From assembly GCF_003201205.1 (NCBI RefSeq), contig NZ_QICN01000002.1, positions 359,780-423,779 of the forward strand: DNA of 64,000 nt. The letters are read 5' to 3'. This DNA is from Sinimarinibacterium flocculans. Its GTDB lineage: Bacteria > Pseudomonadota > Gammaproteobacteria > Nevskiales > Nevskiaceae. Every line of letters starts with the position of its first letter. Position 1 is the stretch's first letter. A program made the translations under genes and the position numbers. The notes under the pieces were generated by a model. The model saw nothing but the letters and a program-made list of their open reading frames with translations, made no database searches and had not been told where the DNA came from. Of the stretch, positions 46,404 through 59,313 are shown piece by piece.

Positions 46404-46778
46404 TCAGCCACCGGTCACGCCGCTCAGCACCCGTCCTGCCGCATACAGGCCGACTGCGAAGGCGGTGTGGTTGATTAGGCTGCGGATGCGCGCACCACGC
46501 GGGGCCGGGAGGCGCCGCGCTGCGAGCGCTACGAGCGCTGCGAGCCCAGCGACCATCGCCGGCTGCATCGCCGACATCGGCACCGCTACTGAACCCAACC
46601 CCGCGATCAGTGTCGGTCCGATCGTCGGCTCCTGAAGCAACGTCATCCCCCCAGTCAGTAGCAGCAACGCCGCGAAGGCAATGCCGGTCAGGTAGTGCGT
46701 CACCCAGCCGATCGCCAGTTCGCTGGGCATCGGCGGCGTCGCGGCGATCGCCGCATGGCGAAAGCGTCTGTGCGGCAT
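46404..46778 (-). pseudogene. DUF2938 membrane protein, N-terminally truncated
   Basis: The 124-residue frame matches DUF2938 from its middle onward: RFRHAAIAATPP, then ELAIGWVTHYLTGIAFAALLL, MQPAMVAG and RSLINHTAFAVGLYAAGRVL. Family members carry about 45-50 more residues at the N-terminus with the first membrane helix. Here they are missing, and the sequence upstream of the ATG runs into a stop. Three membrane helices remain. A deletion joined to the next gene upstream is the simplest reading; residual function is doubtful. Confidence 0.6.
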
Positions 46779-46844
46779 GTGTCCGATCCATACAATGGAC
46801 CGCCAAGGGTTATTCGGCGCGCGGCCTCCAACGCCGTTGCACCA

Positions 46845-47159
46845 TCACAAGCGCTCGTCGAAACTGACCCCGCAATGCGCGCAGAAGTTGATGCTCCGCT
46901 TGTTGCCCCGACCGGGCTCTCCGAACGCCAGCCCCATGCTGCCTTGCGCCAGCTTGAAGCCACAGCGAGGGCACTTGATAAAGAGCGTGGCGTACAGCAC
47001 TGCCCCCATGAAGAGCGCGAACGTGCCGAACGCGAACACCGGATTGAGACCCTGACCGATGCCGACGACTCCGATGCCGGCAAACACCAGCCACGTCGCG
47101 AAGACCGCCGCCATGCTGCGCCGGACCTGTCGTCTGAGCTGTTCACGGATGGTGGTCAT
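46845..47159 (-). CDS. Membrane protein with C-terminal zinc ribbon
   Basis: A 104-residue protein from ATG 47159 (in-frame extension to 47183 possible). Two hydrophobic helices (about residues 15-37 and 41-62) precede a zinc-ribbon-like end: IKCPRCGFKL and NFCAHCGVSF, two CxxC knuckles. The family is not recognised; small two-helix proteins with a cytosolic zinc ribbon are common and uncharacterised. It lies between the truncated DUF2938 gene and a lower-G+C gene. Confidence 0.65.
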   Translation of the reverse strand: MTTIREQLRRQVRRSMAAVFATWLVFAGIGVVGIGQGLNPVFAFGTFALFMGAVLYATLFIKCPRCGFKLAQGSMGLAFGEPGRGNKRSINFCAHCGVSFDERL

Positions 47160-47186
47160 GTCGTGTTTGTGTCGATGGAGCATTCT

Positions 47187-47885
47187 TTAGAGCTCCATCA
47201 CGCGTCCATGGTCTCTTGGGTCAATGAGTATCAAACGGTCCCAATCGTGCTCGATCCTGATCATCTTCCGGAACAACTGTTGATCAGATTCACCAAGACC
47301 GTAGCCAATAAGATCGACAAGCACCAACCACCATGTCGGGTAACGCGTCCGGACGCTCAGAATCTTTGCCGTCTTCTCAGCGACGCAGATTTCAATGTTC
47401 CTCTTCATCTCCGCGAGGACCCAGCCACCGGCATCGTGATCAACGTAGCCAGCGAAAAGGAAGCCCCCGGGGCATGTTTCCGGACCAGCACGTACCTCAA
47501 GCTTGAACGTTCCTAGGCTGAACGTTCGTGTTTCCTCTTTGTCACCGGGGCGAAGCGCCTCTAGCTGTGCGGTAACCCATGGCCTTATATCCTTCCATCT
47601 TGGGATAGGTCTGCGAAACGAGAACGACACCCAGAACGCTCGCTCCTTGTTGGCAAGAGAGATCTTCTCAAGTAGCGAGCGCATTCCCATATGGAGCGGA
47701 ATGGATGACTCCTCAAGGCTGCGAAACTGACCGGTTGAGGCCTCGTTCTGGTTTAGGCGGCGTACCTCCACAGCTACTGCATCGTCGGCCAGAAAATCTG
47801 GAGGTACATTCCCATCAGGCTCGTGGACCACACGCGCGAACCGCTTTCTCAGGAAGGCCTCCACAAGTCGCTCTGCTCCATCCAT
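47187..47885 (-). CDS. Hypothetical protein, possible PD-(D/E)XK-like fold, low G+C
   Basis: A 232-residue protein of unknown family. The N-terminal part RKRFARVVHEPDGNVPPDFL is followed by AVAVEVRRLNQN. The order PDF-(spacer)-VEVRRL resembles the PD-(D/E)XK nuclease core with the lysine replaced by arginine. The rest has mixed alpha/beta character and many tryptophans (WKDIRPWV, YPTWWLVLVDL). Base composition is about half G+C in spot-counted lines, much lower than most neighbours, consistent with recent acquisition. Could be a restriction-related or DNA-repair protein; only the motif supports that. Confidence 0.5.
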   Translation of the reverse strand: MDGAERLVEAFLRKRFARVVHEPDGNVPPDFLADDAVAVEVRRLNQNEASTGQFRSLEESSIPLHMGMRSLLEKISLANKERAFWVSFSFRRPIPRWKDIRPWVTAQLEALRPGDKEETRTFSLGTFKLEVRAGPETCPGGFLFAGYVDHDAGGWVLAEMKRNIEICVAEKTAKILSVRTRYPTWWLVLVDLIGYGLGESDQQLFRKMIRIEHDWDRLILIDPRDHGRVMEL

Positions 47886-49383: not shown

Positions 49384-49746
49384 CTACTCGATCTGCAATT
49401 CCGCGGTGATGGCATCGCCGTCCGACAGGTTCTCCGCCTTGCGCACCTCGGCCTTCACCGCGAACAGGTAGGTCCCGGATTTGCGATCGGGGAATAGCGA
49501 CGTCCGCCACTGAGTCTGGCCGATGCGCACGCTGACGCGGATCGAACCCCAGCCGCGCGCCGTGCTGCCGAAGCGCGAGCGGATCTGTGCGGACAGTTCC
49601 GGCGGCAGGTTGGCGAAATGCCAGGCCGCCGTTCCCTTGTAGCGCCGCAGTGTCGTGTGCACCGTGTAGTCGCGATCGCCGGCAAGCTCGTCCGCCGGCA
49701 GCAGCGGCAGCCAGCGTGGATCGGGCGAGGTCGGTTTTCGCGTCAT
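49384..49746 (-). CDS. DUF1905 protein (intact copy)
   Basis: A 120-residue protein. RYKGTAAWHFANLPPELSAQIRSRF and GWGSIRVSVRIGQTQWRTSLFP give the DUF1905 pattern (cores KGTAAWHFANLPPELSA and WRTSLFPDRKSGTYLF). The sheet-rich domain has no known activity; related domains sometimes accompany YdeI-type proteins. It has about 80 bases between it and the PHP gene. A frameshifted, truncated relative is present at 56470-56648, showing that the gene or its region was duplicated. Confidence 0.8.
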   Translation of the reverse strand: MTRKPTSPDPRWLPLLPADELAGDRDYTVHTTLRRYKGTAAWHFANLPPELSAQIRSRFGSTARGWGSIRVSVRIGQTQWRTSLFPDRKSGTYLFAVKAEVRKAENLSDGDAITAELQIE

Positions 49747-51513: not shown

Positions 51514-53832
51514 TCAGCGATCCCGCACCGGATAGACGAAGGCCCCGGCCTGCGTACCGGTCGCGGACTGCGCCGGGGGCGGCGGCAGCGGGGCGCCGCC
51601 GACGATGACGCGGCCGTGGGCGTCGACGTAGCTCAGCCACGAGACGGTCCTCTGCTTGCCGCGACCGGGCGCGCGGTAGTCGCAGACGCCGTCGCCGAAC
51701 ACCGCTTCGAGCTGCGCCCATTGGTCGTCGGTGAACGGCACCAGTCCGTAGTCATCGCTGCGGTCGAGCGGCTTGAGCACGCAGTCGAAGTTGTCGGCGG
51801 TGTCGGTATCGCCGGCCACGGTGCGCGGCGTGCCGTAGGCGTACAGCGGCTGCAGCAGGTCGATGCATTCCTGGCCGAGCAGTCGCTGGCCGTCCGCCAG
51901 CGCGCAACTGTCCTGCACGTCGCCCGGACGGTTCACCGAGAGCTTGTCGGCGAGCGGCAGGTCCGAGCCATCGGCCTCGACCGCGGCGAGCCAGCGATCC
52001 ATCGCGTCCAGGCCGTCGTAGACGTAGGTGAGATCGCCGAGCAGCGGCACCGGGCCAGCCCACATCACGTGGTTGCGCGCGCTGCCGTGCTCGCGCTCGA
52101 TGCGCCAGCGCACCCACCACGCGTGGACCGAGTCGTGCGCGATGCCCGGGTCCGGGCCGACGAAGTTGATGATGGCCACGGTGTCGAGATTGTTGGCCAT
52201 GTTGATCATGCCGCTGCGGTAGGCATTGTCCACGGCGGGATGATCGGCGCGGATGCGCTCGGCAACCGGCTGGATGTCCACGTCCAGCCCGCCGACCTTC
52301 ACGTTCAGGTCCACGAACATCGCCGGCGTGATCAGGCCGGCGCGCAGCGCATTGAGGCCGTACTGCACGCCGGTGTTGCCGAGCGGAATGCCGGTGAACC
52401 CGTAGCCGACCTGCTGCTCCGTGGCCTGCCAGACATCGGGCGTGCGCTGGCCGAAGATGTGCGGCGACCACTCGATGATGCCGCAGCGCTGGCCGGTGGG
52501 ATTGTCCTGCGGGTGATAGCTGTCGTCGCCCACGCAGGTGCCGGTGACGGCGGTGGCCGCCTTGAACAGGCCCTCGTCCGCCACCACGGCGTTGACGTGC
52601 GTGAGATGGCCCTCCACCGGCCCCCAGGTGGCCGGATTCCACACCACGCCGGGCGCCCAGCGGGACGGGTCCTCGAAGTACAGGCGCATCAGGTGCAGGT
52701 CGAGGAACTGCAGGCCGGCGGACAGCGAATCCGGGTAGGCGCACATCGTCAGCAGGCCCTGGTACAGCCCCGGGTAGGCATTGGCGATAGTGGCCTGCGC
52801 GATCGAGCCGCCCGAGCAGCCGGTGCCGATGGTGTAGCGCAGCGGGCCGTACTGCTCCACGAAGCGCTCCTTGGCCATCATGATCGACTCGGCATTGAGC
52901 GCCACATCGCAGTTGTGGCCGGTGTTGGCCAGCGCCGTGGATATCACCGCGTAGCCCTTGCCCAGCGCGTAGACGTAGCTCGGCTCGATCAGCGGCACAT
53001 CGCCGAAGGTGCCGGAGTAATCGTCCAGCGGCGCGTTTCCGGGCGTGTAGCGCGCACCGCAGTTGCCGCCGTGCGTGACCAGCATCTTGCCGTTCCACTG
53101 CGGCTGCGGTGCCCACGGTTCCCAGGGCGCATTCGGATTGAACAGCGTCAGGATCTTGTACTGGTCGCGGTCCTGGTAGCCCAGCTCCTGGCGCACGATG
53201 AAGGGCACCGTCTCGCCGGTCTGCGTGGTGGTCATCGCCACGTCGTCGGGCGGATTGGCCGGGTCGTAGGGCTGCAGCTCCACGCCCAGTTGCACCACCG
53301 GCGTCTCGCCGCCGAGCGCATCGCCCACGCCGTCCTGCAGCGGCGCCGTCGGGCGGTACAGGAAGGTGTACACCGGCGGCTGGTTGCAGGCCATGTCCAC
53401 CGCGCCGTCCTGGCAGCGGATGCGCTTGATCTCGGGCCGCGAGAAGATCGGGCCTTCGTTGGGATAGTTGCGGATCGTGTGGGACGACGCGGCGCCACCG
53501 AGCCGGGCGCTCAGCATGTTCTCGCCCACGCGCAGGCCTTCCACCCGGCCCAGCACGCGACCGTTCGCACGCCTGGCGAATGCGGCGCTGATGTCCGCGC
53601 CGTTCAGGCTCACGCGCAGGTCCTGCACCGCGGCGCCGTCCGGGAGCCGCAACTCCACCAGCGCATCGCCGCCGCTGATCAGGTCAGACCGGTTGGACAG
53701 CACCTCGATGACCGGCGCGCCCTGCGCATCACCCTCCACCGGAAGTCCGTCCACTTGCTGGCTGCTGCCGCACGCCACCACGAACAGACCCGTGCACGCC
53801 AGCGCAAACACGCCAGCCATCCGCTTTGACAT
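51514..53832 (-). CDS. DUF6351 family lipoprotein, alpha/beta-hydrolase-like
   Basis: A 772-residue exported protein from ATG 53832 (GAGGAA at good spacing; the upstream ATG is too close). The lipobox is LFVVAC. A beta-domain (residues 30-120) precedes a large domain with the hydrolase-like elbow YTIGTGCSGGSIAQAT, NGKMLVTHGGNCGARYTPG and a distal histidine in DSVHAWW. These hints suit a hydrolase of a hydrophobic ester, as recognised for DUF6351, but no activity is established. The protein is large, secreted, and rich in aromatic residues. Divergent from the ATPase gene at 54176 across a 343-base gap. Confidence 0.7.
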   Translation of the reverse strand: MSKRMAGVFALACTGLFVVACGSSQQVDGLPVEGDAQGAPVIEVLSNRSDLISGGDALVELRLPDGAAVQDLRVSLNGADISAAFARRANGRVLGRVEGLRVGENMLSARLGGAASSHTIRNYPNEGPIFSRPEIKRIRCQDGAVDMACNQPPVYTFLYRPTAPLQDGVGDALGGETPVVQLGVELQPYDPANPPDDVAMTTTQTGETVPFIVRQELGYQDRDQYKILTLFNPNAPWEPWAPQPQWNGKMLVTHGGNCGARYTPGNAPLDDYSGTFGDVPLIEPSYVYALGKGYAVISTALANTGHNCDVALNAESIMMAKERFVEQYGPLRYTIGTGCSGGSIAQATIANAYPGLYQGLLTMCAYPDSLSAGLQFLDLHLMRLYFEDPSRWAPGVVWNPATWGPVEGHLTHVNAVVADEGLFKAATAVTGTCVGDDSYHPQDNPTGQRCGIIEWSPHIFGQRTPDVWQATEQQVGYGFTGIPLGNTGVQYGLNALRAGLITPAMFVDLNVKVGGLDVDIQPVAERIRADHPAVDNAYRSGMINMANNLDTVAIINFVGPDPGIAHDSVHAWWVRWRIEREHGSARNHVMWAGPVPLLGDLTYVYDGLDAMDRWLAAVEADGSDLPLADKLSVNRPGDVQDSCALADGQRLLGQECIDLLQPLYAYGTPRTVAGDTDTADNFDCVLKPLDRSDDYGLVPFTDDQWAQLEAVFGDGVCDYRAPGRGKQRTVSWLSYVDAHGRVIVGGAPLPPPPAQSATGTQAGAFVYPVRDR

Positions 53833-54113
53833 CGGCATCTTTCCTCGCACCTCGAATGTTGACGATCGGGCACTCCGGCCCGTTGCCACCGGCAGCCCCG
53901 CTCCCGGGGTCTGGACGCGCGAGTCGTTTCACCGCAGATCGCGCAGACGCGACTTTACGGACAAGTGCGACGCCGTGTCATCCCGCAGGGCGACTGTTCA
54001 TGGGTTCAGACGATGCTGACCCGCGCGGCGACAAGGACCGCCGCCATGGCCCGGCTGCTCTTTGCGAAGGCTCTCACGAGTGCCTGAGGCTGGTCGCACA
54101 CGCCCCACTTCCC

Positions 54114-54141
54114 TTGACCCTCTCATCGCCACCCTTATGAT
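54114..54141 (+). promoter_or_regulatory. Sigma-70-type promoter of the ATPase-DUF4435 pair
   Basis: TTGACC (54114-54119) and TATGAT (54136-54141) each match five of six consensus bases with a 16-base spacer, 34 bases before the ATG at 54176. The rest of the 343-base gap between 53833 and 54175 shows no gene or repeat that I can support. Confidence 0.7.
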
Positions 54142-54175
54142 CCTGTGATGATGACACCTTCTATACGAGGCCCTA

Positions 54176-55579
54176 ATGGACGACTCTCCGATAGTCCGCC
54201 GATTCTCGATTCACGCTCTGCACGGATACAAGGATGTACAGATAGCCTTCGATAGCCGCAGCCGCATCATCATCGCTGAGAATGGCTCTGGAAAGACCAC
54301 GATACTCGGTGCGCTAGCTAGCTTCCTGAAGGGCCACTTCTACGAGCTTCAGAAGCTGAGATTCGAGAGAATCGAATGCGAACTTAATGGGCAGCCAGAG
54401 CCGGTTGTCCTTCTCCATGATCATCTGATTCCTGCAGGTGGCCAGTCATTGGCGACGCTGCGCGAATGGTCTCGCATCTCCGGGCGAAGCTTGTCCGAAC
54501 TACAAACTGCGCTCTTGGCAGACGCCGATACAACAACGCCGTTCGGCTCGGGCGTACTACACGAAGTCTATTCACGCAGCCCTCACGACCGCCAAACTTT
54601 TCAACAGCAAGTCAACGAGCTCCGTGGCTTAGTCCGTGAGCAAACTAGTGCCCCTGCGCTTAAGGCCATGGATGCTGTCCGGCGAGTAATGAGTAACTAT
54701 CAAATCCTGTACCTCCCAACGTACAGGCGCGTTGAACTGCCAAAGGTGCGCGACAGAAGGGCTCAGGCGCTTGAGCTCGAACGAAGAAGGTATACGCGAG
54801 GTCTCTCCGAAGAACCCGGGAGAACTGCTGCCGACTCGATTCAGTTTGGACTAGCTGACGTTGAGGAACGATTGCAGGCGCTAATGGTGGAGATTCAGAG
54901 ACAGTCCAACATTGGCTACAGAAAGATTACGGCGACAATCATTGATGATGCCTTGAGTGGAGGCCTGCGTGCGGAGTCACTCTTTCCGCAAGGCCTCCCT
55001 ACTGTAGAAGATCTCGGGCTCTTCTTCTCGCGAGTCGAGGAGACCTTCTCTACGAAGAGGAGACTGGAGCAGTTAGAGGAGCTTTACGCAAACGGCAGCA
55101 TCAATAGTACTGACAACGTACTTCTCCGCTATTTCCTCGGCAAGTTTGCTGAAGTGATGAGCAAAACTCGAGAGATGGAGTCCAGGGTAGAAGCGTTCGT
55201 GGAGAGAGCAAACACGTATCTCGCCCAATCCACTGACGAAAAGCAGCTTCAGTATTCCGCGAACACCATGAAAGTTGCGGTATTCGATAAGTGGACCAAT
55301 TCGAACATCGACTTCGACAGCTTATCGTCGGGCGAAAAGCAAGTGCTTTCCCTAATGGCGCATATGTACCTTGGAACCCGCAAGAAGATCGTGCTTATCG
55401 ATGAGCCAGAGCTCTCTCTATCTATAGAGTGGCAACGTCGAATCCTCCCTGATATCGCCGATGCTCCCACGTGCGCGCAGCTCCTAGCTATTACGCATTC
55501 TCCTTTCATTTTTGAGAATAAGCTAGATCCGTTCGCCGCACCATTGACGGTGAAGAAAACTCGCGGGGACTCCGCATGA
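54176..55579 (+). CDS. ariA: ABC-type AAA ATPase, AriA-like (PARIS defence system)
   Basis: A 467-residue ATPase with all ABC/SMC-type motifs: Walker A ENGSGKTT (35-42), signature LSSGEKQ (about 382-388), Walker B KIVLIDEPELSL (about 402-413) and the switch histidine in AITHSP (about 442). A long helical insertion lies between. The size, single ATPase domain and following DUF4435 gene match AriA of the two-gene PARIS anti-phage system. In that system an ATPase senses an anti-restriction protein and releases AriB. The stop overlaps the next ATG (ATGA). Base composition is far lower in G+C than the flanks (32 of 60 at 54181 against 45 of 60 at 53521). The name rests on architecture and needs a homology search. 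Confidence 0.72.
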   Translation: MDDSPIVRRFSIHALHGYKDVQIAFDSRSRIIIAENGSGKTTILGALASFLKGHFYELQKLRFERIECELNGQPEPVVLLHDHLIPAGGQSLATLREWSRISGRSLSELQTALLADADTTTPFGSGVLHEVYSRSPHDRQTFQQQVNELRGLVREQTSAPALKAMDAVRRVMSNYQILYLPTYRRVELPKVRDRRAQALELERRRYTRGLSEEPGRTAADSIQFGLADVEERLQALMVEIQRQSNIGYRKITATIIDDALSGGLRAESLFPQGLPTVEDLGLFFSRVEETFSTKRRLEQLEELYANGSINSTDNVLLRYFLGKFAEVMSKTREMESRVEAFVERANTYLAQSTDEKQLQYSANTMKVAVFDKWTNSNIDFDSLSSGEKQVLSLMAHMYLGTRKKIVLIDEPELSLSIEWQRRILPDIADAPTCAQLLAITHSPFIFENKLDPFAAPLTVKKTRGDSA

Positions 55580-56490
55580 GCGCCGAGCTCCTTGATTCCC
55601 TGAGGCACGGGAGGTCGAGCGGCTCAGTTCTAAAGATTAGGGTTAGTCAGGTTCGGTCGAAGCACCCGAGCCATCCAATTTTCGTTTTCGAAGGCGACGA
55701 GGATATCGGCCCCTATGAGGTATGGTTAAGAGGCTGCTTTGGAAGAGCCTACCAACCGGTTCCAGGCAAAGGCAAAGGCCAGCTACTGAGCTGCAGAGAT
55801 AGTCTGCTATCGGATAAGACAGGCTCGTTTGAATGCGTCTATTTCTTCGTCGATAGGGACTTCGATGGTCTGCGGGAAAGACCTCCTGGTGATGATATCT
55901 ACGTAACTGGGTGCTACTCTGTTGAGAATGAAATGCTCGTGCCCGAAGTTCTACATAGCCTGCTAGTCGACGAGTTCAAACTGTTTGTAGGCGGAGAGGA
56001 GATCGATCGCCTAGCGGCACATGCAGAGCGCGTTCTTGAGTCGATATGCGTCGCTCTGAAAGCAGCGAACAAGAGGATATTTGTTGCTCGCAGACTTGGG
56101 GTGCCGCTGCAAATCGACGACTCGGTCACAAAATACATCGCTCTTGATGCCAACGGCGCATCAGTTCGTCACACCGAAGAGCAGCTCGAACGGCTCGTAA
56201 AATATGAGCGCCCAGTACCCTCAGAACTGTGGGCCGCTATGGACGCTGCGTTTGAGAACCTTGAACCGAGAGTTGATTACCGCGGAAAGTTTCTGCTACG
56301 AGGACTAGCGAATTGGTTTCGGCTTCTAGCCGAACTTAGAGAAAGCGGAGCTAACAACTTCTTTTCAGATCCACTATCAATTCGATTTAGTCCTGAGCAT
56401 CTTTCACTGCGCGCGCTTGCGTCTCGGCGCAAAGCTCCAGATTCGTTGGTTAGATTCGTTTCAAAGATTGGGCACCCAAGCGCGATTTGA
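55576..56490 (+). CDS. ariB: DUF4435 TOPRIM-type nuclease, AriB-like (PARIS effector)
   Basis: A 304-residue protein. Its N-terminal half has the TOPRIM-like DUF4435 acids: Glu39 in FVFEGDED, Asp93-Arg-Asp95-Phe-Asp97 in FVDRDFDG and Glu117 in YSVENEML. In PARIS, AriB cleaves a host tRNA upon release and arrests growth. The C-terminal helical half ends at SKIGHPSAI. Its last twenty-odd bases run into the remnant of a DUF1905 gene on the other strand, so the right junction of the insertion is near 56470. Identification shares the caution stated for the ATPase. Confidence 0.72.
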   Translation: MSAELLDSLRHGRSSGSVLKIRVSQVRSKHPSHPIFVFEGDEDIGPYEVWLRGCFGRAYQPVPGKGKGQLLSCRDSLLSDKTGSFECVYFFVDRDFDGLRERPPGDDIYVTGCYSVENEMLVPEVLHSLLVDEFKLFVGGEEIDRLAAHAERVLESICVALKAANKRIFVARRLGVPLQIDDSVTKYIALDANGASVRHTEEQLERLVKYERPVPSELWAAMDAAFENLEPRVDYRGKFLLRGLANWFRLLAELRESGANNFFSDPLSIRFSPEHLSLRALASRRKAPDSLVRFVSKIGHPSAI

Positions 56491-56648
56491 TGGCGGATTG
56501 TTCGGTCGAGAGGTCGGCGAAGTACCAAGCGGCGGCGCCCTGGTAGTGGCAAGCCCGGCTTTGGACGGTAGTCGTGGCCGGCTACCGGGTCGTCCGCCGG
56601 CAGCAGCGGGGACCAGCGGTCTTCGGGCGGCGTCGGCTTTCGTGGCAT
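56470..56648 (-). pseudogene. DUF1905 gene remnant, frameshifted and truncated
   Basis: Minus-strand sequence from ATG 56648 reads MPRKPTPPEDRWSPLLPADD, like MTRKPTSPDPRWLPLLPADE of the intact gene at 49384-49746. After GHDY a two-base deletion shifts the frame. The alternative frame then gives YQGAAAWYFADLSTEQSA and SRLGA, matching YKGTAAWHFANLPPELSA and SRFGS. Similarity stops where the DUF4435 gene ends. The remaining C-terminal half was not found at the left edge of the island. Confidence 0.75.
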
Positions 56649-56712
56649 GGCGCGAAAGCGTATATGCGCGGCGTGGGGAGCGGACGGAGTTTGCGCTCGC
56701 CGACGTGCAGAA

Positions 56713-56740
56713 GCGGTCGCGCCTGAAGGCGCTCCTACAG
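56713..56740. repeat. REP-like element (single copy)
   Basis: The stretch contains TCGCGCCTGAAGGCGCTCCT, whose complement AGGAGCGCCTTCAGGCGCGA matches the two inverted copies at 30997-31070. The core GCGCCTgaAGGCGC is itself a dyad. It lies just outside the right end of the ATPase-DUF4435 island and the DUF1905 remnant. Confidence 0.6.
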
Positions 56741-56754
56741 GTGACACAAACCAA

Positions 56755-56780
56755 GAACCCCGCAGTTGTCTGCGGGGTTC
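56755..56780 (-). terminator. Intrinsic terminator of the tandem CoA-transferase gene
   Basis: An 11-bp perfect stem (GAACCCCGCAG and complement) with a TTGT/ACAA loop lies 22 bases after the minus-strand stop at 56803, followed by TTGGTTTG. It should end the CoA-transferase transcript and insulate the island on its right. Confidence 0.7.
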
Positions 56781-56802
56781 GGCGGTACAGCGGCGCTTCG
56801 CC

Positions 56803-59313
56803 CTACTTCTTCGATTCCTGCTCCAGCATGCCGGCCATGCCCTGCTTGGGCGCGGCGGCCTGGGTGGCGGCCGGGCGCGGGGGCATGCGCGGCATGCCGG
56901 GGAAGCCGATGGCGAACTGTTCTTCCATGGTCTTCATGTCGTCCTCGCTGTAGCCCATGGACGCCATGATTTCCTTGGTGTGTTCGCCGACGAGCAGCGG
57001 GCGGCCCTGGATCACGCCCGGGGTATCGGACAGCGAGAACAGCAGGCCGATCTGGTCGAGCTTGCCGACGACCGGGTGCGGATAGGACACGACCCACTTG
57101 TTCTTCTGCGCCACCGGATCGTCGTGCAGCTTGCGCGAGAACTCGGCATCGACGATCTCCACGGGCACGCCGGCGCCGTCGAGCGTCTTGAACGCCTCGC
57201 TGGCGCTCATCGTCTTGAGCTTGGCGCCGATCTGGCCGGCGTCGGTGACGCCCAGTGCCGACAGCAGTTGGTCCTGCTCGGCCTTCGCGCGCGCGGCCAC
57301 GCAGATCCAGGCGTCGCCGGTCTCGTAGAGGCGATGGAACGGTCCGTAGCCGAGCTGGTCGCCGCCGATGCGCGGACGCTCGAAGCCCTTGCCGTCCTTG
57401 GTCGCCACGGCGTAGCTGGTGTTGAGCAGCGCGGCGTTGATGATGGAGGTGTCGACGAACTGGCCTTCGCCGGTGCGGTCGCGGTGATAGATCGCCTGCA
57501 CGATCGAGGTTGCGGACAAAAAGCCGTTGCCGGTGTCGCCGAAGCTGGTGAAGCTCCACAGCGGGCGGCCGACCTCGCCGTTGTCGCCGGTGCGGCCCAT
57601 GCCGCCGTCCTCGAACTGGATGCCGGAGAGGCAGGCGCCGGTCTGGTCGTTGCCGGGCAGCGCCGCACGCGCGCCGCGCTCGAAGCCGCGCGAGTGCGCG
57701 TAGATCAGCTTCGGGTTGATCTTCTTGAGCGATTCGTAGTCGATCTTCAGTCGCTCGGCGGCGTCGTAGCGCATGTTGTGCTGGACGACATCGGCCTTGG
57801 CGACGAGATCGAGCAGGATTTTCTTGGCGCGTGGGTCTTTGAGGTTGAGGGTGATGCTCTTCTTGCCGCGGTTGGCCATGTAGGCGATGTGCACGCGGTG
57901 CCAGAACAGGTCGTACAGGCCGTTGATCTTGATGACCGTGGCGCCCAGGTCCGACAGCAGCTGCGTGCCGAAGGGTCCGGCGATGGCCAGGCCCAGGTCC
58001 AGCACCACGATGCCGTCGAGCGGCGCCTTGAGATCGCCCTTCTTCTGCGCGGCGGTGGCCGCCTTGGCTTCGGCGATGATCTTCGCCGCCTCGGCCTTGA
58101 TCTCGTCGGTGTTGGCGCCGGGCTTCACCGGCGGTGCGCCGGGCGCACCCTGGGTCACGCTCATGTTGTAGGCGTTGCCGACGGTGCGGATCGTGCCCAG
58201 TTCCGGATGCGTGGTTTCGGTGACGCAGCCGTCCTCGAGGAAGGCCGGGTCGGCGAGCGAGTCCTCAATGCTGCGCACCGGCTGCATCGTCATCTCGGCG
58301 GTCGCGGCGGCCTCGATCCAGTCCTTGACCGGGAACTTGGCGACCGCCTCGGCCAGCAGCGGTTGGTAGTGCGACATCACCAGGATTTCTTCCGGGCCGG
58401 TGCCGAAGCGGTCCGGATCGTTCTGCACGGTGAGGTCGGGTGAGGCATTGAGCGTGTCGCCGGCCGCGGCCTGCAGGATGAAGCGCGGGTTGGGCACCCA
58501 GTTGTGCAGCCAGTGTCCGTCCTTGGCCTGGAAGTGACCCTTGGACGACTTGCTGTTGAGAATCCAGGTGTCGAAGCCCGGCGAGTCCGGCTTCTCCGCG
58601 CGCTGCCAGACGCCGGCGGCGCCGGCGAGCGCGCCCTGCAGCAGCGAGGTTTCCACCCACTGCCCCTTGCCGGTGATCTCGCGCGCGCGCAGCGCGGCGG
58701 CGATGCCCAGCGAGGCGTTGAAGAAGGCGCCCAGGCTCGGCCACTGCGAGGCGACGAACAGCGGGCCGGGACGCGGCGCGCCCTGCACCTGGTCCTGCGG
58801 AATCTCCAGGTCCGGATACGGGTCGGGCAGGCCGCTGATGTGGTTGAGCGCGCCCTCGGGCCAGCCGCGCTGCTCGAACATCAGGCCGGTGCGCGCCTGC
58901 ACCAGCGCGTCAATGGCCGGCCGGTCGCTGTGCGGGTTGTCGCGGCCGTAGCCGGTGATCGAGCAGACGATCAGGCGCGGGTTGAGCTTCGACAGCGACG
59001 CGTAGTCGATGCCGAGCCGGGCCGCTTCGCCCGGCGCGTAGGACTCGACGAGGATGTCGGCCGTCTTCGCCAGCGCCAGCAGCACGTCCTTGTCCTCGGG
59101 CTGGGTCAGATCGAGAAACGCGCTGCGCTTGCCGCGCTGCCACACCGCGTAGCCGAGCTTATGCGGGCCGTCGAGCGTGCGGGCGGGGTCGCCGCCGGGC
59201 GGTTCGATCTTGATGACGTCGGCGCCGTTGTCGCCGAGCAACATCGCCGTCATCGGTCCGGCGATGCCGGACGTCAGGTCGAGCACTTTGAGGTTGTGGA
59301 GAACGCCTGCCAT
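56803..59313 (-). CDS. Tandem (two-domain) class III CoA transferase
   Basis: An 836-residue fusion of two CaiB/BaiF-type CoA-transferase units. Unit 1 (about 5-400) has LKVLDLTSGIAGPMTAMLLGDNGADVIKIE and the catalytic-region AIDALVQARTGLM with its aspartate. Unit 2 (about 415-790) repeats the plan with IVVLDLGLAIAGPFGTQLLSDLGATVIKI; its active-site region GNDQTGACLSG keeps an aspartate but loses the Gln-Ala pair. Normal enzymes are interlocked dimers of one unit, so this chain may form both halves by itself. The C-terminus is a proline/alanine-rich tail (PRMPPRPAATQAAAPKQG). It pairs with the metal-dependent hydrolase upstream. Confidence 0.9.
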   Translation of the reverse strand: MAGVLHNLKVLDLTSGIAGPMTAMLLGDNGADVIKIEPPGGDPARTLDGPHKLGYAVWQRGKRSAFLDLTQPEDKDVLLALAKTADILVESYAPGEAARLGIDYASLSKLNPRLIVCSITGYGRDNPHSDRPAIDALVQARTGLMFEQRGWPEGALNHISGLPDPYPDLEIPQDQVQGAPRPGPLFVASQWPSLGAFFNASLGIAAALRAREITGKGQWVETSLLQGALAGAAGVWQRAEKPDSPGFDTWILNSKSSKGHFQAKDGHWLHNWVPNPRFILQAAAGDTLNASPDLTVQNDPDRFGTGPEEILVMSHYQPLLAEAVAKFPVKDWIEAAATAEMTMQPVRSIEDSLADPAFLEDGCVTETTHPELGTIRTVGNAYNMSVTQGAPGAPPVKPGANTDEIKAEAAKIIAEAKAATAAQKKGDLKAPLDGIVVLDLGLAIAGPFGTQLLSDLGATVIKINGLYDLFWHRVHIAYMANRGKKSITLNLKDPRAKKILLDLVAKADVVQHNMRYDAAERLKIDYESLKKINPKLIYAHSRGFERGARAALPGNDQTGACLSGIQFEDGGMGRTGDNGEVGRPLWSFTSFGDTGNGFLSATSIVQAIYHRDRTGEGQFVDTSIINAALLNTSYAVATKDGKGFERPRIGGDQLGYGPFHRLYETGDAWICVAARAKAEQDQLLSALGVTDAGQIGAKLKTMSASEAFKTLDGAGVPVEIVDAEFSRKLHDDPVAQKNKWVVSYPHPVVGKLDQIGLLFSLSDTPGVIQGRPLLVGEHTKEIMASMGYSEDDMKTMEEQFAIGFPGMPRMPPRPAATQAAAPKQGMAGMLEQESKK

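Follow-up and report, generated by a model that had tools for sequence, protein, structure and literature searches.

Gene content and composition of the locus

The window, i.e. the whole stretch of 64 kb that was analysed, contains two neighboring ORFs on the same strand: an ariA-like gene at 54176-55579 (+; 467 aa, ATG start), which encodes an AriA-like ABC ATPase and predicted sensor, and an ariB-like gene at 55576-56490 (+; 304 aa, ATG start), which encodes an AriB-like DUF4435/TOPRIM protein and predicted effector nuclease. The two ORFs are separate and are joined by an ATGA overlap at 55576-55579. An earlier note had described this arrangement together with the ATPase motifs and a DUF4435/TOPRIM protein carrying Glu39 and D-R-D-F-D, and we found each of these features in place. 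The consensus-like promoter mentioned there is also present, as a sigma-70-like TTGACC-16-TATGAT sequence at 54114-54141 (+), 34 nt upstream of the ATPase start. It is the single exact match to the pattern TTGACN{16,19}TATNNT in the 64 kb; shuffled sequences contained 0.15 matches on average, and 14 of 100 shuffles contained at least one. Being a consensus match only, the site is a plausible promoter of the pair.

The island of low G+C content around the pair is sharply bounded. Calculated per 100 bases, G+C is 0.44–0.59 across 54100-56499, as against 0.64–0.73 in the left flank (53400-54099) and 0.58–0.75 in the right flank (56500-57199). At codon position 3 the G+C content is 0.59 for ariA and 0.51 for ariB, compared to 0.83–0.93 for five other genes of the neighborhood. 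A further stretch of low G+C content in the window holds an ORF of 273 aa at 46695-47516 (+), whose value at codon position 3 (0.595) is low like that of ariA and ariB; this ORF is without a Pfam or PADLOC match at 0.001. An Rfam scan of 53500-57200 found no RNA family.

Similarity of the ATPase to AriA

The ATPase carries a Walker A motif (ENGSGKTT, residues 35-42), the signature LSSGEKQ (383-389), a Walker B motif (VLIDEP, 406-411) and a switch histidine (H441). Walker A, the signature, the Walker B glutamate and the switch histidine are unchanged across 31 aligned ATPases. A search with AriA and AriB profiles had been set as a test beforehand: the best PADLOC matches are AriA for the ATPase (PDLC04164, 3e-30) and AriB for the partner (1.2e-11), with no other family ahead. 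The ATPase additionally matches many PtuA models, the best of them at 4.5e-22, and AriB is the sole family matched by the partner. With Pfam, AAA_21 (60.4 bits) and AAA_15 (55.3 bits) were detected in the ATPase and DUF4435 alone (41.9 bits) in the partner, which has no HNH nuclease match. NCBIfam gave no match at all for the partner protein, and none among the best 25 of its 41 matches to the ATPase reached the curated cut-off. The detection rule for PARIS (PMC9122126, excerpt) combines AAA_15 at 32 bits or more, or AAA_21 at 27 bits or more, with DUF4435 at 27 bits or more in adjacent genes; all three scores of the window pair lie above these values, and its genes overlap.

When a profile of 31 ATPases was compared with the PDB, AriA was matched at 2.9e-31 and the next family at 3.4e-14. 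Alignment of the window ATPase family to the E. coli-type AriA pair alignment by hhalign gave 99.8% with an E-value of 3.6e-29. The predicted ATPase fold (monomer; mean pLDDT 80.8, pTM 0.78, residues 185-220 below 50) was searched against 350,542 chains using Foldseek. Ranks 1–15 are all occupied by AriA, with retron and Septu ATPases after them; for these AriA chains the TM-score is 0.43–0.55 by query length and 0.57–0.63 by target length at an rmsd of 8.4–10.2, and the top alignment has 16% identity, TM-scores of 0.54/0.62 and an rmsd of 8.6. Both in sequence and in structure, AriA is the nearest of the defence ATPases to the window protein.

Similarity of the partner protein to AriB

The DUF4435 protein carries E39 and, at 93-97, DRDFD. 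A PDB search with this single protein gave no match and a search with a 3-row profile gave unrelated matches only. Using a 30-row profile, AriB came first, at a weak value (0.013), with its E26 opposite E39 of the window protein. The hhalign comparison of the partner family with the E. coli-type AriB pair alignment gave 94.6% and an E-value of 6.6e-8. The predicted fold of the partner (monomer) has a mean pLDDT of 88.6 and a pTM of 0.86, and the model places E39 directly after its first strand (35-38). Against the same 350,542 chains the AriB chains of 8ux9 and 8v46 occupy ranks 1 and 2 and are the sole fold matches with E < 0.001 (AriB E 1.3e-6; TM-scores 0.44 and 0.43). The top alignment covers the whole protein (318 columns including gaps) at 18% identity, TM-scores of 0.44/0.44 and an rmsd of 9.1. 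The TM-scores are moderate; the window pair and E. coli AriA/AriB are distant relatives. The PARIS identity proposed earlier is borne out in that AriA and AriB rank first in sequence profiles, in profile-profile comparison and among predicted folds, and the TOPRIM glutamate that was to be looked for in the predicted structure is there.

Across 30 aligned partners E39, D43, D93, D95, E117, R236, G237 and K238 are invariant (30/30). At the matching places, as counted in the alignments, E. coli AriB has E26, D88, E90, E122 and R236-G237-H238; compared with 8ux9, the 8v46 chain has Ala at position 90 within the aligned stretch. When 33 partners are considered, the glycine of the RG motif is found in 33/33 and the arginine in 31/33, with His in Planktothrix and Asn in Vibrio instead. 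R236 of E. coli AriB has been modelled in contact with U17 in the D-loop of the tRNA, and K60 and K64 have been modelled as holding the anticodon loop and are needed for defence (PMC12409363, excerpt). The RG motif kept by all 30 partners corresponds to an E. coli residue that is only modelled on the D-loop, which makes it a sharp target for tRNA-recognition mutants. For K60 the alignments differ: HMMER places it opposite the lysine of a conserved GK motif (K67 in the window protein) and MAFFT has gaps at this position; the Pseudoalteromonas protein lacks K60.

Relatives of the pair and co-inheritance of the two genes

Relatives were collected by scanning a two-row ATPase alignment against a collection of genomes that the tool describes as covering 84,980 species. 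The scan matched 221 stretches, 30 of them encoding a relative, and at 29 of these 30 an ORF of 269–381 aa starts at or near the ATPase stop. All 29 neighboring ORFs as well as the window protein (30/30) contain a DUF4435 match. The occurrence of the same partner type in 29/30 relatives indicates that the pairing is more than chance. AriA models are matched by all 31 ATPases, PtuA models too by many. The sole ATPase relative without a DUF4435 neighbor (L064) has only short ORFs at this place. Two of them, at L064:7359-7987, follow the ATPase and overlap each other, and the second is a protein that we take to resemble a PIN-domain toxin.

The AriA and AriB genes are inherited as a unit: over 33 pairs the distances between the AriA proteins and those between the AriB proteins are correlated with r = 0.92 (Mantel test), and 0 of 2000 permutations reached a value as high. 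The 33 pairs comprise the window, 29 of the 30 loci (L064 being left out) and three plasmid pairs. Trees were calculated with FastTree and rooted at the midpoint, with no outgroup. The window falls into one group with Janthinobacterium sp. BJB426 (L051), Rhizobium leucaenae (L052) and a Ramlibacter MAG (L053) in the AriA tree (support 0.90) as well as in the AriB tree (0.99), but the order inside this four-member group is not the same in the two. The AriA tree (0.99), but not the AriB tree, joins the four-member group to the two E. coli-type pairs. The latter had been reached via an AriB fragment and stem from a Pseudoalteromonas plasmid (47% identical over the fragment) and from Planktothrix (33%).

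The three nearest relatives are uncharacterised PARIS-like pairs, in which the genes overlap as well and which share 36–41% identity with the window ATPase and 28–31% with its partner. Downstream of the Ramlibacter pair (L053:6104-8614) we observed a protein with matches to UvrD-helicase and PD-(D/E)XK nuclease. Another pair is located on L025:1-6012 (G129, MAG AqS3, a gammaproteobacterium), a few kb from further ORFs, which presumably resemble type I restriction genes (HsdR- and HsdM-like). Viral contigs contained no relative of the window AriB or of the E. coli AriB fragment at E 1e-3. Among plasmids, 11 Vibrio records partially match the window AriB, and among phages 8 records partially match the ATPase with a coverage of 14–26%.

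Horizontal acquisition and the edges of the island

At E 0.001 we detected relatives of the partner in 1 of 100 related genomes, which is the host itself, and in 0 of the remaining 99 including 10 congeners. Both ariA and ariB are present as a single copy in the host genome. In class-wide samples, 369 genomes included 3 with an ATPase match at 1e-12, one of them the host itself, and DUF4435 was found in 13 of 339 genomes, 11 of them over the cut-off.

The right edge of the island lies in the broken 5’ part of a DUF1905 gene (56471-56648, -), whose inner end overlaps with the last ariB codons. A tblastn search with the intact paralogue of the window, itself located at 49384-49746 (-), recovered the broken gene as two pieces in different frames. 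Its DNA matches the intact gene of a congener (G004), with 0 of 300 shuffles as good, and in this congener about 1 kb separates the intact DUF1905 gene from the CoA-transferase that is also found in the window. On the left edge, 54010-54028 (-) may correspond to the 3’ end of this DUF1905 gene: it is identical to the congener gene at 18 of 19 bases, a match that is suggestive but not significant alone, as 9 of 300 shuffles score as high. An exact empty site was not found in the congeners, in which the flanking tannase-like and CoA-transferase genes are not side by side; the right edge alone is therefore fixed. Repeat pairs of at least 14 bases bracketing the island were not found. The earlier note had found no transposase or integrase at the edges; a Pfam scan of 9 ORFs in the flanks or nearby agrees with this.

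On the host side of the right edge, beyond the CoA-transferase gene, there is a terminator-like hairpin of 11 pairs (56755-56780, -). It is to be read as a consensus match only, since the region contains two terminator-like sites compared to a shuffle mean of 2.9. A short element at about 56704-56754 is matched at 15 further sites in the host genome, over 24–39 bases and often in opposed pairs.

Around the nearest relatives 10 of the 21 other ORFs were scanned. The Janthinobacterium pair adjoins two integrase genes (61.6 and 45.2 bits) and the Rhizobium pair a borderline integrase match (27.2 bits at a cut-off of 27.1); none was seen for the Ramlibacter pair. In all three cases the pair is poorer in G+C than its locus (0.443/0.541, 0.453/0.547 and 0.514/0.631 for L051, L052 and L053, respectively). 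The foreign origin of the DNA that had been proposed for the window is supported by the aberrant G+C content at codon position 3, the absence from the 10 congeneric genomes and the right edge inside the broken DUF1905 gene. We therefore consider the island as DNA acquired horizontally, and the pair is most naturally read as a mobile defence module.

Proposed mechanism and possible tRNA targets

Taking together homology, folds, motifs, co-inheritance and acquisition, the pair is very probably an intact, horizontally acquired two-gene PARIS system, in which, by analogy with the characterised one, AriA would be the sensor and AriB a tRNA nuclease with an abortive outcome. In characterised PARIS, three AriB are sequestered by an AriA hexamer. 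AriA would keep the TOPRIM nuclease AriB inactive until it is bound by a phage protein, which in the cases known so far is an anti-restriction protein that mimics DNA, such as Ocr; AriB would then be released. The released AriB would dimerise and nick host tRNAs via a two-metal TOPRIM site (E39, D93, D95), so that translation would stop and the infected cell would yield no phage. This follows the published PARIS scheme, which comprises the holding of AriB by AriA, its release by anti-restriction proteins, the AriB dimer, tRNA nicking and the stop of translation (PMC12409363, excerpt; PMC11455837). The description of the host as unusual was overstated: PARIS is present in 5.2% of genomes (PMC9122126, excerpt). 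The system is common, and to find it here is unsurprising.

In the host genome HSDR_N and N6_Mtase matches lie about 7 kb from each other on C10 and about 4 kb on C4; C15 has two more HSDR_N matches. As judged from these domain matches, the host is likely to have restriction as its first defence, with PARIS as a possible back-up.

The host tRNAs gave 46 genome matches, of which 30 were taken as loci and 12 were read. Positions 36-41 of tRNA-Lys(UUU) (L085:1501-1576) read UAACCA, compared to UAAUCA in the E. coli target. UAAUCA, the motif at the published E. coli AriB cleavage site, occurs in host tRNA-Thr(UGU), tRNA-Thr(CGU), tRNA-Lys(CUU) and tRNA-Asn(GUU). We also considered that the host tRNA-Lys was changed to escape AriB, and rejected this idea: C39 of tRNA-Lys(UUU) is found in 11/11 genomes of the genus (the host and L112-L121; UAACCA in 10, UAACUA in one), 10 of which are without the system, so that it is not an adaptation to PARIS here. 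The window pair and its three nearest relatives might be a separate branch of PARIS, remote from the E. coli pair and with another trigger and another set of tRNAs, though we regard this as rather doubtful; on the tRNA sequences above, the main target would in that case be tRNA-Thr or tRNA-Lys(CUU).

Alternative interpretations

Several findings count against the PARIS reading. Identity to the E. coli pair is only 16–18%, sequence alone hardly reaching E. coli AriB; in the D-x-D motif the window protein has Asp (D95) as its second acid where E. coli AriB has Glu (E90); and K60 and K64 of E. coli AriB have no agreed counterpart in the alignments. As OLD-group ATPase/TOPRIM systems can act on DNA, homology at such a distance does not prove tRNA cutting. 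The pair could accordingly be PARIS-like in its ATPase and TOPRIM parts and differ in its action, cleaving phage or host DNA in the manner of OLD-type nucleases, or another RNA. A TOPRIM OLD nuclease has been reported to cleave DNA (PMC12409363, excerpt), the similarity of the window partner to E. coli AriB is remote, and C-terminal domains of OLD appear at ranks 4, 6 and 24 of the partner fold search. These OLD matches are, however, far weaker (E 0.25, 0.36 and 1.4, compared to 1.3e-6 for AriB) and are preceded by an unrelated NAD synthetase, whereas the AriB match spans the whole partner; in addition, the RG kept in all 30 partners falls on the residue of E. coli AriB for which a contact with the tRNA D-loop was modelled. 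We consider such a different action improbable.

That the ATPase belongs to a Septu-like system (PtuAB) or to a retron is highly unlikely. The many PtuA matches of the ATPase and its similarity to Septu and retron ATPase structures point in this direction, but AriA outscores these ATPases in sequence as well as in structure. Instead of the HNH nuclease of Septu the partner contains DUF4435 only; for a retron, Pfam detected no reverse transcriptase in the 9 flanking or nearby ORFs, and the Rfam scan of the region was without a match. Equally slight is the chance that the pair is a decayed or silent remnant without function on foreign DNA. Its absence from the 10 other genomes of the genus and the broken gene at the right edge would fit such a remnant, yet both ORFs are full length with intact catalytic motifs, a promoter-like site is present and the end of ariB is close to the ends of its relatives. 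A PARIS system thus remains the preferred reading of the pair.

Comparison with known systems

OLD and Gabija GajA carry ATPase and TOPRIM on a single polypeptide; the window contains two separate ORFs, and the TOPRIM match to OLD in the fold search is only marginal. Common to these systems and the window pair is the combination of an ABC ATPase with TOPRIM (PMC12409363 and PMC9122126, excerpts). PtuA of Septu and the ATPases of retrons Eco7/Ec78 belong to the same ATPase superfamily as the window protein, with weaker scores, and are partnered with HNH or retron parts (PMC12409363, excerpt; PDB titles) in place of DUF4435.

The E. coli PARIS system (PDB 8ux9, 8v45-8v49) shares with the window pair the gene order and the protein sizes (467/304 aa here, 464/308–316 aa in E. 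coli). The ABC ATPase motifs, the Walker B glutamate (E410 in the window, E393 in E. coli) and the switch histidine of AriA are the same. In AriB, the TOPRIM acids correspond (E39 to E26, D93 to D88 and D95 to E90), R236-G237 is found in both proteins, and E. coli AriB is the best fold match. The two systems differ in sequence, with D-R-D in the window nuclease and D-R-E in that of E. coli, and in the middle of AriA, where the E. coli type has YFPAFR and the window YLPTYRR in a stretch left unaligned by hhalign. PARIS is hereby extended to a pair at 16–18% identity from the characterised one, in which the catalytic features are kept.

The window pair differs from two of its nearest relatives in its surroundings, as L051 lies beside integrases and L052 beside the borderline match, and none was detected among the ORFs scanned around the window pair. 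It shares with all three the overlapping genes and a G+C content below that of the surroundings.
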